Below, in pieces: positions 1 through 36,139 of a stretch of DNA of 39,929 bases. Position 1 is the stretch's first letter; each line of letters starts with the position of its first letter. The position numbers were made by a program, and so were the translations under genes. The notes beneath the pieces are model-generated. The model was not told where the DNA came from and did no database searches. It saw nothing but the letters and a program-made list of their open reading frames with translations. Origin of the DNA: a virus; the IMG/VR virus record IMGVR_UViG_3300045974_000989, positions 1 through 39,929 of that record. One strand, given 5' to 3'.

Positions 1-195
1 GGCCTTGCTCCCAGGAATTTATAAAGTATAGCAGATCACTTTGTGTCCCCCCCGACTTGGCGCTGACCAAGCTGAAGCGCGCCGCGATAAATAGCGGCCA
101 TTTTACGCGATAAATGACTTTTCAAAAGATTTCACTGAGCGTAATAGAATAACAAATTTGGCGAGACGTCGGCCACCCCGCCAAACCTAAGCCTC
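1..195. other. Non-coding left terminal region, candidate phage right end
   Basis: There is no plausible gene between the window edge and the stop codon of the methylase gene. In BcepMu-type genomes the late operon runs to one genome terminus, so this stretch should hold or adjoin the transposon end. It contains a 10-bp direct repeat (83-115) and a TG dinucleotide followed by a C-rich run (42-52) that could mark a terminus. The precise junction with host DNA cannot be set without the other end or a host sequence. Confidence 0.4.
83..115 (+). repeat. Direct repeat CGCGATAAAT x2, possible transposase sites
   Basis: CGCGATAAAT occurs at 83-92 and again at 106-115, a 23-bp period (about two helical turns) in non-coding DNA beyond the last late gene. 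Mu-type transposases bind repeated sites at the genome ends, so these are candidate end-binding sites. The matching site at the opposite end is not seen in the window. Confidence 0.4.
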
Positions 196-2354: not shown

Positions 2355-3818
2355 TCAAACTTTAAAACACCCGGCTCGTGCCACGCCCAATGTTGCTGTC
2401 CCTGTTGTACCCGCACCGAATGTGACCCCAATGGTCATGTTTGCCAGCGTAATTGCTCCTGCTGGAATCGGCATCTCAGGCATCCTGATCGGGAGACGCC
2501 ACGACGATTGCGGATATGCCCCTTTGCTGGATGAACTCCAGTTACCTGTATATTTTTGCCCCCCTACGAACACGACGAGCTGGGCATAAACATTGATGAC
2601 GTTGCTGAGGCCCGAAACACTTACTTCCCCCTCCACTCGTAACAGGTCTCCAGCGCCAAAATAACCCGCCGGACTGACATAGCTCTGAACACCGCCATTA
2701 CCAAACGCCGCTGTTTGTGTCAAAACCAATTGCTGGGTATTGCCCAAGCTATCTCCAACAGTCGCGTCGGTGCGTGGCACCAACGACCCAACGCCCGTGA
2801 TCCCAGAGCCAAACAATGCCCAATTATTTGCAGCTTCGCCCGTGATCCCGTTCAGCAATTTTCCTGCCGGCCCAGAAAGGAACAACGGATTGCCAAACAC
2901 ATTGCGGCTACTTGGGTTCACCAGTCGGCTATCAATCGGACTGCTGACCAGAGTCAAATTCGGGACGATGATGGAATTCAGAGTCTGTGCTGCCCGCCGC
3001 GCAATACCCTCCGACGCCATTGCCGTTTGATGCAATCCATCAAAAGTCATTGCCGCTTGCCCATACCCGTTTACGTCACCAGCATTGACCATGACCGCGT
3101 CCGCACCTATGTAAACCGTACCTGGCGTCAATTCCACATAACGCTGCAGCAATCGGTTACGCTCCACAATTCGTTGGGCCGCCGTAGGCGACAGGTTTCC
3201 GTACCCGGCACTAACCGGCATGTCAGAGAAAATGATCACAATCGAGTCAACTGCCAACTGTGCATCGCAAAACGCCCGCAAATTTGCCACGCTGGTGGCG
3301 GGTGTAATCGCATCGCCATCATTGATGCCAGCGAGTAGAAAAACATACCGGGCCTGATAGCTGGCCACTTTGTGCGCACGGGCAGCAACTTGGGCCGTTG
3401 TAGCACCACCGAACGCCTGGCAAGAGAGCAGCTTCGGTTGCCAGCCCAAATACGCAGCCAGCCACAGCAGTAGGCCATTGCTCGCCCATGAGTGAGAAAC
3501 GCCGACTTGGGTCAACGGCCCGGAATTGGGATTTGCAGGCACTGAATCAAGTTGAACAACGAACTGGTCTTTGGACAAAATCGACACGACAGGAAAACCG
3601 CCATTCATCGCGTCGTCCGGATTGCCACTCAAACAGGCTTCTTGCCCGAGTGCTGTAAAACCGTGTCCAGGCAACGAAACAGTCGCCAGCTTACCGCTTG
3701 CTGTGATTGGTATGCCAGCAGTGGACTGCGCGTATAACAACTGCATGCGACTGTCGCCTGCGAGAGTTACTGTATCGTCTCGCACTTTGCGAGCTCGCCT
3801 GACTGGCCGATCACCCAT
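2355..3818 (-). CDS. SGNH/GDSL hydrolase, tail-associated esterase
   Basis: Protein of 487 residues. The SGNH blocks are visible: GDS with Ser23, GIND with Asn166, and FDGLH with Asp260 and His263, a complete catalytic set. The C-terminal third (from about residue 300) is beta-rich and may bind carbohydrate or trimerise. Its place among fibre genes suggests a virion enzyme that deacetylates or cleaves surface polysaccharide during adsorption. The start overlaps the stop of the preceding gene (TAATG), so the two are translationally coupled. Substrate is unknown. Confidence 0.8.
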   Translation of the reverse strand: MGDRPVRRARKVRDDTVTLAGDSRMQLLYAQSTAGIPITASGKLATVSLPGHGFTALGQEACLSGNPDDAMNGGFPVVSILSKDQFVVQLDSVPANPNSGPLTQVGVSHSWASNGLLLWLAAYLGWQPKLLSCQAFGGATTAQVAARAHKVASYQARYVFLLAGINDGDAITPATSVANLRAFCDAQLAVDSIVIIFSDMPVSAGYGNLSPTAAQRIVERNRLLQRYVELTPGTVYIGADAVMVNAGDVNGYGQAAMTFDGLHQTAMASEGIARRAAQTLNSIIVPNLTLVSSPIDSRLVNPSSRNVFGNPLFLSGPAGKLLNGITGEAANNWALFGSGITGVGSLVPRTDATVGDSLGNTQQLVLTQTAAFGNGGVQSYVSPAGYFGAGDLLRVEGEVSVSGLSNVINVYAQLVVFVGGQKYTGNWSSSSKGAYPQSSWRLPIRMPEMPIPAGAITLANMTIGVTFGAGTTGTATLGVARAGCFKV

Positions 3819-31098: not shown

Positions 31099-31530
31099 TC
31101 ACGCAACGTTCTTGGTTGCACGAACTAATTCAAGCAATAGCCGTTTTCGATCAGGTGCTGCGTGGCGAAATCCCGCAAGTAGTTCAGTTTCTTCGTCCGT
31201 TAGCTCCACCGCTAACAACTCATACGCGCCGTTGATAACTTCGATTGCCTGCCGCAAGCTTTCCCGCGTTGCACTGGGCTGGGCACTTAGTTTTTGCCTC
31301 CCATAGCGGATATACTCTTCATCAGCCCCTAACTTGCAAAAATCTTTCATTGCTGGGCGACTGATTTCCGTCATTCCTCGTTCGTAACGCCCCCACATTT
31401 CCCTCGTTAGGCCAAGCTTGTCCGCAACACCCGCTTGCGTCAGCCGCAAATTCTCCCGCTCCTCCGCAAGGCGCTCCCCCATTTTTCGCAATCGCTCTGC
31501 GTTAGTTTCGTCGTTAGTGCCATCAGCCAT
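31099..31530 (-). CDS. Phage repressor, XRE family
   Basis: Protein of 143 residues with an N-terminal XRE-type helix-turn-helix (about residues 15-70: LRLTQAGVADKLGLTREMWGRYERGM) and a helical C-terminal part likely to oligomerise (VELTDEETELLAGFRHAAP). It lies opposite the early operon, the position of the BcepMu repressor, and likely binds the phased operator array at 31591-31730 to keep transposition genes off. There is no LexA-like self-cleavage region, so induction is not obviously SOS-dependent. Confidence 0.85.
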   Translation of the reverse strand: MADGTNDETNAERLRKMGERLAEERENLRLTQAGVADKLGLTREMWGRYERGMTEISRPAMKDFCKLGADEEYIRYGRQKLSAQPSATRESLRQAIEVINGAYELLAVELTDEETELLAGFRHAAPDRKRLLLELVRATKNVA

Positions 31531-31533
31531 CAT

Positions 31534-31769
31534 TCACCCACCAGCAATCTTTCACATCTCACCCTTCGCACAGCAAGCCTCTTTGCAATGTTTCGCATTA
31601 TTTCACATGATTCCGCGACATTGCAACAGAAATTAGAATATTTCTCCATATTTCGCTACATTTCTCATTTAGTCTCATGAAAGCGAAAAATTTATCTAAA
31701 TTTCCTTGTATTTCGCTTTTTTTCGCTATATTATGCATACCAACGTAACCATAATTTATCGGAGCAACT
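31534..31769. promoter_or_regulatory. Divergent control region with phased TTTCNC operator array
   Basis: There is no gene here. TTTCNC-like hexamers recur in exact 10-bp register: 31591 TTTCGC, 31601 TTTCAC, 31611 TTCCGC, 31641 TTTCTC, 31651 TTTCGC, 31661 TTTCTC, 31711 TTTCGC, 31721 TTTCGC, with weaker matches between. This would place binding sites on one face of the helix. An early rightward promoter is likely as TTGTAT (31706) with 17 bp to TATTAT (31729). A leftward repressor promoter may be TTGCAA (31626-31621) with 18 bp to AATAAT (31602-31597). Both overlap the array. Confidence 0.7.
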
Positions 31770-31982
31770 ATGGCCACCACAACGATTAAGACACTACAGC
31801 AAGTGAAGGACGAGTTTGACGAGGGGGGCATTTCTGTTCGGGAATGGGCAAAATCGGAAAATCTCCCCTACGACGCCGTAATGGATGTGCTGGGTGGTCG
31901 TCGGGCGGGGCGACGTGGTTTTGCGCATGATGCTGCGGTTGCGCTGAAAATTAAGAATGGTCGCCGTCGCGCATCAAATTGA
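31770..31982 (+). CDS. BcepMu gp16-family DNA-binding protein (Ner-like position)
   Basis: Protein of 70 residues, first early gene, with a helix-turn-helix (ISVREWAKSENLPYDAVMDVLGGRR) and a basic tail. It matches the BcepMu gp16 family pattern (GISxxEWA...VxxVLxGRR...G). By position it is the counterpart of Mu Ner, which shuts down early and repressor promoters. A GGAG site precedes the ATG. Confidence 0.82.
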   Translation: MATTTIKTLQQVKDEFDEGGISVREWAKSENLPYDAVMDVLGGRRAGRRGFAHDAAVALKIKNGRRRASN

Positions 31983-34381: not shown

Positions 34382-36139
34382 ATGACACTCACGCCCGCCA
34401 TGACCGTAGCCCTGACCGAAGTTGCTGCACAAGCAGCCGCCGCTGGCCATGGAAACAAAGAGCCGATCTATCAGGCCGCAGTTGCCAGCCTCGGCATCAG
34501 CCGCGCAACATTATTGCGCATGATCAAGCAGGTGGCAATCACAAAACCGCGCAAGCAGCGCTCCGACGCAAATCAGTGCATATTGACCCGCGACGAGGCT
34601 CTACTAATTTCCATGAAGTTAGTTGAAGCAACGCGCAAAAATAACAAACGAACCATGTGCATTTTCGATGCGGTTGAAACCCTGCGCACAAATGGACTAA
34701 TCAGCGCGCAGCGTGTTAACCCGGAAACCGGAGAGGTTTTCCAACTATCGGAAAATGCCATTGCGCGGGCGTTACGGGCCTACAAACTGCACCCCGATCA
34801 ACTCATGCAACCCAATCCGGTCACCGCACTGGCGAGCCCACACCCCAACTATGTATGGTGTTTGGACGCCTCGGTCTCGATCATGTATTACCTGGAAAAG
34901 GTCGATGGCCTACAGGTCATGGACAGAGCAAAGTTTTATAAGAATAAGCCAGCCAATCTCAAAAAAATCGAACACGATATGGTTTGGCGATACGCAGTCA
35001 CCGATCACACTTCTGGTTGGATTTTTGTAAATTATGTACCTGGTGCTGAGTCCGGCATCCATCTGTGCAATACGTTTATCGCTGCAATTCAAAAACGTGG
35101 CCTTGACGACCCGGTACACGGCGTGCCACGCATCGTCATGCTTGACCCCGGCAGCGCAAACACCGGCGCACTTTTTAAAAATCTTTGTGCAGGGCTTTGC
35201 GTTGATGTACAAATCAACGAAGTCGGCAATCCACGGGCAAAAGGCCAAGTTGAAAACGCAAACAATCTGATCGAATGCAAATACGAGTCAAAGCTCAAGT
35301 TTGTCCAGAAAAAAGTGACAAACATCAACGAAATGAACGAACTGGCAACCCGCTGGATGGTGCATTTCAATGCCACCCGCATCCATACCCGCCACGGCAA
35401 AACCCGCTACAACGCGTGGCTCGAAATCACACCCGATCAACTGCGCATCGCCCCGCCCGTGGCAGTCTGCCGCGAACTGATCACCAGCGCGCCAGAAAGC
35501 CGGGTAGTCACGCCGCACCTCGAAGTCTCTTTCGGAGGTCGCCTGTATGACGTATCCGATGTGCCCCACGCTATCGTCGGCGACAAGCTCATGGTTTGCC
35601 GCAATGCCTATCGCGACGACGCCATCAACGTTGTCACGATCAATGATGATGGCCGCACAGTGTTTTTTGTCGCCCCAATCGTCAACACAGATGCCAACGG
35701 CTTCCGGGTCGGTGCGCCGATCATCTGCCAAGAGTACAAAAGCCACAAGCACACAGACGCGCAAACAGCAAAAAACGAAATCGAGCTGCTCGCGATGGAT
35801 GCAACTACACTCGCCGAAGCTGCACTCAAGCGCAAGGCCAAAGTCCAAGTGTTTGGCGGCAAGATCGACCCGTTCAAATCGCAAAACGACGCCCCAAAAC
35901 AGACATTCCTGCCCCGCGCAGGTGTCGCCAATACCATCGTCGCCCCAGTGGTGGAAATCAAGCCGCTCACCCACACCAAGGCAGCCCTGATCCTGGCAAG
36001 GGCAGGCATCGACATCACGGATCAAGTGCGTCAGCGAATCAAAGACTGGTACCCGGTCGGCGTCCCCGAAACCGAGATCGATTCGCTAGCCCATCGCCTG
36101 ACCCTCCCACAAACCACTAAACTTTTCGCAGTGAGTTAA
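34382..36139 (+). CDS. DDE transposase (BcepMu TnpA/MuA functional homologue)
   Basis: Transposase of 585 residues. The RNase H-like core shows Asp162 (WCLDAS), Asp255 (MLDPGS) and Glu291 (GQVENANN), a DD-35-E arrangement. An N-terminal helix-turn-helix region (ASLGISRATLLRMIKQV) binds ends; the C-terminal 150 residues would contact the MuB-like partner. It drives integration and replicative transposition. No clear ribosome site precedes the ATG at 34382. Followed by the MuB-like ATPase after 2 bp. Confidence 0.95.
   Translation: MTLTPAMTVALTEVAAQAAAAGHGNKEPIYQAAVASLGISRATLLRMIKQVAITKPRKQRSDANQCILTRDEALLISMKLVEATRKNNKRTMCIFDAVETLRTNGLISAQRVNPETGEVFQLSENAIARALRAYKLHPDQLMQPNPVTALASPHPNYVWCLDASVSIMYYLEKVDGLQVMDRAKFYKNKPANLKKIEHDMVWRYAVTDHTSGWIFVNYVPGAESGIHLCNTFIAAIQKRGLDDPVHGVPRIVMLDPGSANTGALFKNLCAGLCVDVQINEVGNPRAKGQVENANNLIECKYESKLKFVQKKVTNINEMNELATRWMVHFNATRIHTRHGKTRYNAWLEITPDQLRIAPPVAVCRELITSAPESRVVTPHLEVSFGGRLYDVSDVPHAIVGDKLMVCRNAYRDDAINVVTINDDGRTVFFVAPIVNTDANGFRVGAPIICQEYKSHKHTDAQTAKNEIELLAMDATTLAEAALKRKAKVQVFGGKIDPFKSQNDAPKQTFLPRAGVANTIVAPVVEIKPLTHTKAALILARAGIDITDQVRQRIKDWYPVGVPETEIDSLAHRLTLPQTTKLFAVS

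Follow-up and report, generated by a model that had tools for sequence, protein, structure and literature searches.

What does a row of short words, all pointing in one direction, do in the control region of a phage whose repressor belongs to a family that works differently? Phage repressors of the P22-c2/434-like fold act as dimers on mirror-image sites, and the array described here is not of that kind. The stretch of DNA that we analysed, called the window throughout, is a virus record 39,929 bases long and represents a B3-type (Mu-like) transposable phage. Its early region has the B3/BcepMu-type layout, with a DDE transposase (phrog_310) followed by an AAA ATPase (with a phrog_296 match too) and with GemA downstream, and the divergent repressor and gp16/ner-type genes of the B3/BcepMu type are found at its switch. 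The transposase is 46% identical to that of Pseudomonas phage B3 and 53-56% identical to metagenome relatives; a Foldseek search with its model, which is of low confidence (pLDDT 70.7) and speaks to fold class only, matched TnsB and MuA. Near the start of the window, two TTTATCGC words look like the late terminus of the phage, so that the first ~80 bases are probably host DNA. The features that define this setting are as follows.

Positions 84 to 114, minus strand: probable late phage end, with two TTTATCGC words 23 bp apart, of the transposase-site type.
Positions 31099 to 31533, minus strand: gene for an XRE-type repressor of 144 aa, with a P22 c2/434-like HTH and the recognition helix GLTREMWGRYERG.
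Positions 31770 to 31982, plus strand: gene for an HTH protein of the BcepMu gp16 family (TIGR04111, phrog_925), in the ner position and the first early gene.
Positions 34382 to 36139, plus strand: gene for a B3/Tn552-type DDE transposase, 46-56% identical to relatives.

The array occupies the 236-bp gap between the minus-strand XRE repressor gene and the plus-strand BcepMu-gp16/ner-type gene, where its words fall into three clusters.

Positions 31591 to 31730, plus strand: 10-bp direct-repeat array with the approximate consensus TTTC(G/T/A)C(A/T)A.A, in 14 rows, seven of them exact TTTCNC and eight with the core TC[AGT]C.
Positions 31591 to 31616, plus strand: cluster 1, with TTTCGC at 31591, TTTCAC at 31601 and TTCCGC at 31611, over the predicted minus-strand repressor promoter.
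Positions 31641 to 31676, plus strand: cluster 2, with TTTCTC at 31641, TTTCGC at 31651, TTTCTC at 31661 and AGTCTC at 31671.
Positions 31711 to 31726, plus strand: cluster 3, with TTTCGC at 31711 and 31721, inside the candidate early-promoter spacer.

This array of phased TTTCNC words is real. A sequence-only reading of the locus had claimed a 10-bp register of such words over 140 bp and had listed eight of them; the register is borne out, and seven of the eight words are exact (31591, 31601, 31641, 31651, 31661, 31711 and 31721, all at position 1 modulo 10), the one at 31611 being TTCCGC, with one mismatch. Shuffles of the same 140 bp contain 0.82 TTTCNC words on average, and none of 20,000 placed four or more in one register at any period from 7 to 14, as compared with seven in the array. 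The same periodicity is seen in a motif-free autocorrelation, in which self-matches at lag 10 number 69 versus 38.2 expected from dinucleotide shuffles (z 6.0), lags 20, 30, 40, 50 and 60 are each raised, and the sum over lags 10-60 in tens (z 11.5) was reached by none of 2,000 dinucleotide shuffles. Among the 140-bp stretches of the 39.9-kb window, the array has the strongest 10-periodicity. It is also one-sided: of the TC[AGT]C cores in 31534-31769, 13 are on the plus strand and two on the minus strand, and all eight cores inside 31591-31730 share one register.

B-DNA makes a turn about every 10.5 bp. Since the lags of the array are raised at exact multiples of 10 up to 120, and show no rise at 21, 42 or 63, the array is a 10.0-bp repeat rather than a 10.5-bp helical bias. 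At 10.5 bp per turn, a spacing of 10.0 bp implies a drift of ~17 degrees per unit and >200 degrees across the array, and the units therefore wander round the helix; the proposal that all sites lie on the same face has to be narrowed to adjacent units. Bending of the DNA, which had also been put forward, is over the array as a whole not supported by a wedge model, in which the net bend over the 140 bp is only 19 degrees versus 62 in shuffles, and we rejected global curvature as the role of the array. At both promoters, the predicted curvature of local 50-bp segments is raised (72 and 81 degrees, with uncorrected p values of 0.03 and 0.01). Such local curvature would be the most that the promoters experience if the array were a 10-bp tandem repeat in decay, or T-rich phased DNA, with no dedicated binder, an explanation that we consider unlikely. 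The unevenness of conservation over the ten phases of the unit, only marginal compared with neutral decay (p 0.06), and the lack of any conservation of the array in relatives would both be in keeping with decay. Neighbouring units, however, are only ~53% identical and yet free of indels over 140 bp, the array covers the switch exactly and has no net curvature, and the half-site expected for the class of the repressor agrees with its core (see below).

The array was said to lie between the repressor and early genes and over both of their candidate divergent promoters, and the gene calls and promoter candidates agree with this placement.

Positions 31597 to 31626, minus strand: candidate repressor promoter, with TTGCAA at 31626-31621, an 18-bp spacer and AATAAT at 31602-31597, a match of 9/12 with 0.8 expected by chance.
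Positions 31583 to 31626, no strand: perfect 9-bp inverted repeat, TTGCAATGT / ACATTGCAA, its arms 26 nt apart around cluster 1 (the first three units).
Positions 31706 to 31734, plus strand: candidate early promoter pE, with a -35 TTGTAT at 31706-31711, a 17-bp spacer and a -10 TATTAT at 31729-31734.

In the B3-type phage Fc02, the same gap has overlapping promoters for the repressor (pC2) and the ner operon (pE) within 106 bp (PMC9936078). The candidate pE of the window matches the consensus at 8/12, which is under the threshold of the promoter scan, and was read by eye by analogy with relatives; its spacer is filled by two TTTCGC units. The inverted repeat TTGCAATGT / ACATTGCAA is a separate observation, located at the repressor promoter.

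What relatives have at this place was examined in 172 fetched transposase relatives, 131 of which yielded both the repressor and the gp16-type gene. A script parsed the early promoter in ~56 of the 131, the unparsed loci being informative in neither direction. Nearly all of the ~56 carry a single dyad between the -35 and -10 of the early promoter, for example TTGAC-AAT-GAGAACTATAGTTCTCATAATC, in other words in the slot where cluster 3 sits in the window, and a 10-bp array at the switch was found in none of the 172. On a period-10 score per 140 bp the window reaches 10.8 and the runner-up 5.4, the latter within a transposase gene. The leaders of many relatives (L005, L038, L244 and L077 among them) also contain the word ACATC(A/T)TTGCA, or a close variant, between the early promoter and the start codon of the gp16-type gene; none was seen in the window.

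The recognition-helix class of the repressor predicts the dyad operator across hosts, as seen in the repressor-ner gap of L038, L243, L244, L233, L278, L280 and other loci. Helices of the class (S/T)RE(M/I)WG(R/K)YERG accompany TGAGAAC....GTTCTCA dyads, whose half-sites are spaced by 10 bp, in loci from enterobacteria, Pseudomonas and Actinobacillus, and RETW recognition helices go with TGTGATC....GATCACA dyads. The helix of the window repressor, TREMWGRYERG, falls in the former class, with the whole HTH only 39-48% identical. The dyad of this class is missing from the window: nothing in the intergenic region matches it at more than 8/14, a level exceeded by chance in the rest of the window (up to 10/14), and none of the inverted repeats of the intergenic region fits the -35/-10 dyad slot of the relatives. 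Together with the one-sided cores, this agrees with the suggestion that half-site-like units in one orientation, rather than a dyad operator, are present here.

If the half-site of the class is instead arranged as a direct pair, TTCTCA....TTCTCA at 10-bp spacing, its best match in the whole window on both strands is at 31662, in cluster 2 (11/12), and no equally good direct TTCTCA pair exists elsewhere in the window on either strand. With four offsets tried, alike for every operator class, the TTCTCA class ranks first of 28, and two of 60 random 6-mers did equally well; in a PWM version of the test the class comes third among 30, and 9.7% of random 8-mers score equally well. The fit of the array core to the half-site predicted from the repressor class is thus moderate, at p ~0.03 to 0.1 depending on the test. 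The structure model of the repressor (pLDDT 89.6), which comprises a P22 c2/434-like HTH and a C-terminal helical part, appears compatible alike with dimers on alternate units and with a filament, and does not decide between them; its re-examination covered residues 8-80.

On the sequence evidence, an unusual repressor operator is the best reading of the array, with at least eight same-direction words every 10 bases where the relatives have a single mirror-image site. We think it probable, though well short of certain, that it serves the phage's own XRE repressor as operator, in which head-to-tail half-sites at 10 bp would replace the single dyad. The repressor half-site would have been multiplied head-to-tail, and repressor subunits or dimers would bind adjacent units cooperatively and in one direction, from the repressor promoter towards the early promoter. 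Bound repressor would occupy the early-promoter spacer between -35 and -10, keeping the early (transposition) operon off, and a higher occupancy of the array would limit transcription of the repressor itself. Several considerations count against this interpretation: the match to the half-site is modest, a dyad is what relatives sharing the recognition helix have, with no array-bearing relative found, the phage ends of the family have similar units (see below), and the early promoter is weak by consensus.

The sequence-only reading had named either the repressor or the gp16-like protein as the binder, and of these the repressor, whose helix class ranks first of 28, is the better candidate. In Mu, the early operon is repressed by Ner, and an early HTH protein of the gp16/ner type, or another HTH protein of the phage, might likewise bind the array as feedback on the early operon. 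The start of the gp16-type gene is 40 bp away from the array, on its downstream side, and annotation describes the family of this gene as DNA-binding, but relatives whose promoter region is without an array have the gp16-like gene conserved as well. It is therefore unlikely that gp16 alone would explain an array unique to this phage, and we regard feedback by such a protein as very improbable.

The search for phages closer to this one was made with several of its proteins. A single-protein search with the transposase found no close relatives in viral or genome contigs, and for the repressor, searches of viral contigs, of phages and of 399 genomes from a single bacterial order gave no close relative, apart from one prophage, 42% identical over part of the HTH and without the array. 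Terminase relatives (47-49%) likewise showed no array. Since close relatives of the phage were not found, the array has no conservation record. Scans for TTTCNC/TTTCGC triplets at 10 bp matched many unrelated phages, with no B3-type switch among those examined, and the matches examined resemble packaging-type or simple tandem arrays. Two further observations concern 10-bp rows in other phages. In another phage group, L118 (13087-13200) and also L298, L301, L304, L310, L313 and L320 have a degenerate row of ~10 TTTCGCT units at 10 bp, located in L118 just past a small sigma-like HTH gene. Short 10-bp arrays of GNGAAA, possibly packaging sites, lie near small-terminase-like genes in L123 (~3263-3330) and L165 (~2648-2720).

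The array could also be tied to transposition. B3-type relatives have at their early ends an array 80 bp long and phased at 10 bp, with TTTCAC, GCAAC, TTGCA and TCCC units, followed by TTTATC[TG]C, which in most has a second copy ~23 bp on; such arrays were located in L007 (14229-14338), L084 (10659-10770), L222 (13193-13290), L214 (13365-13470), L240 (14625-14710) and others. The array of the window might then be an internal row of transposase half-sites, as at these ends, for transpososome assembly or for self-repression of the transposase, a possibility that we find doubtful. The comparison is with the ends of relatives, the window's own early end being outside the record and its array internal. 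The core of a cyclic model trained on the ends only is TNTC(C/A)C, and this model can be aligned to the array of the window with r 0.63 (p 0.02 by permutation of columns); by a model trained on the array only, the end arrays are ranked at a median 0.5% of each locus (equalled by two of 60 permuted models), and the outermost end units of B3, TATTTCTCA and AATTTCGCG, resemble units of the array. The reverse scan is on the other hand weak (p 0.11), and the unit cores are unlike, the end arrays being TCCC/GCAA-rich and the window array TTTCGC/TTTCTC. An array at the early promoter is, moreover, absent from all relatives of the B3-type sample, the transposase has no N-terminal enhancer-binding domain, and binding of transposase to the end arrays is itself presumed. 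The end model was trained on 15 ends and gives a score of at least 38 in 31 fetched loci; at the looser cut-off of 34 it matches 48 of 152 loci, in some cases within genes. The units may thus be transposase half-sites, or may be used by both proteins.

A transposition enhancer as in Mu, which had been suggested for this region, is unlikely because published B3/Tn552-type transposases do not have the enhancer-binding domain of Mu (PMC8705779); the match of the window transposase to the phage transposase profile, for its part, starts only at position 132 (of 696). A different tie of the array to transposition is possible, since the phage ends of the family have a similar 10-bp-phased array. The two functions could even be combined, with a repressor of the P22-c2 fold polymerising head-to-tail across both promoters on a row that the transposase would also recognise because its units would be copies of the array at the phage ends, and immunity would then compete with transposition for one filament-forming site; we hold this to be quite unlikely.

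If the array is indeed the operator of the repressor, the helix would have remained nearly unchanged with an operator that is a one-way row of half-sites, which would show how operator geometry evolves, and the switch would have been made cooperative through the number of sites. A single helix class with a dyad in one phage and an array in another provides a pair for direct comparison, and the helix-to-operator table for ~130 related phages is useful by itself for the prediction of immunity groups.

The closest known counterparts are the dyad operators of B3/BcepMu-type phages, such as the pC2/pE region of Fc02, which share with the window the same genes, their orientation, the promoter slot, the repressor family and the 10-bp distance between half-sites. 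These relatives have one inverted pair in ~85-130 bp, whereas the window has a one-direction row over 140 bp in its 236-bp gap. The operator/enhancer (IAS) of Mu is, like the array, a multi-unit control region between the repressor and ner; it differs in that neither the Mu operator region nor the D3112 switch has a 10-bp periodicity (z -1.7 and 0.1), and in that B3-type transposases are without the enhancer-binding domain.

The orientation, register and predicted half-site of the array would fit a direct-repeat operator of the P2 C or CII kind over a promoter. The C repressor of P2 has a direct-repeat operator of two 8-bp repeats 22 bp apart (PMC4752584). It is an HTH phage repressor that acts cooperatively on direct repeats at the early promoter, properties that are proposed for the window, where at least eight repeats at 10 bp take the place of two at 22 bp. 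In lambda, CII recognises a direct repeat through two subunits of a tetramer (PMC9986795); this HTH regulator is an activator with a single pair of sites, in contrast to the row in the window, for which a tetramer of the CII type is without support. BldC multimerises cooperatively, head to tail, on short repeats whose number varies (PMC5859096). Although BldC and the omega repressors have MerR-like and ribbon-helix-helix folds and the repressor of the window is of the XRE type, the head-to-tail binding of BldC offers a model for how the array could work, with the repressor perhaps forming a filament along it.
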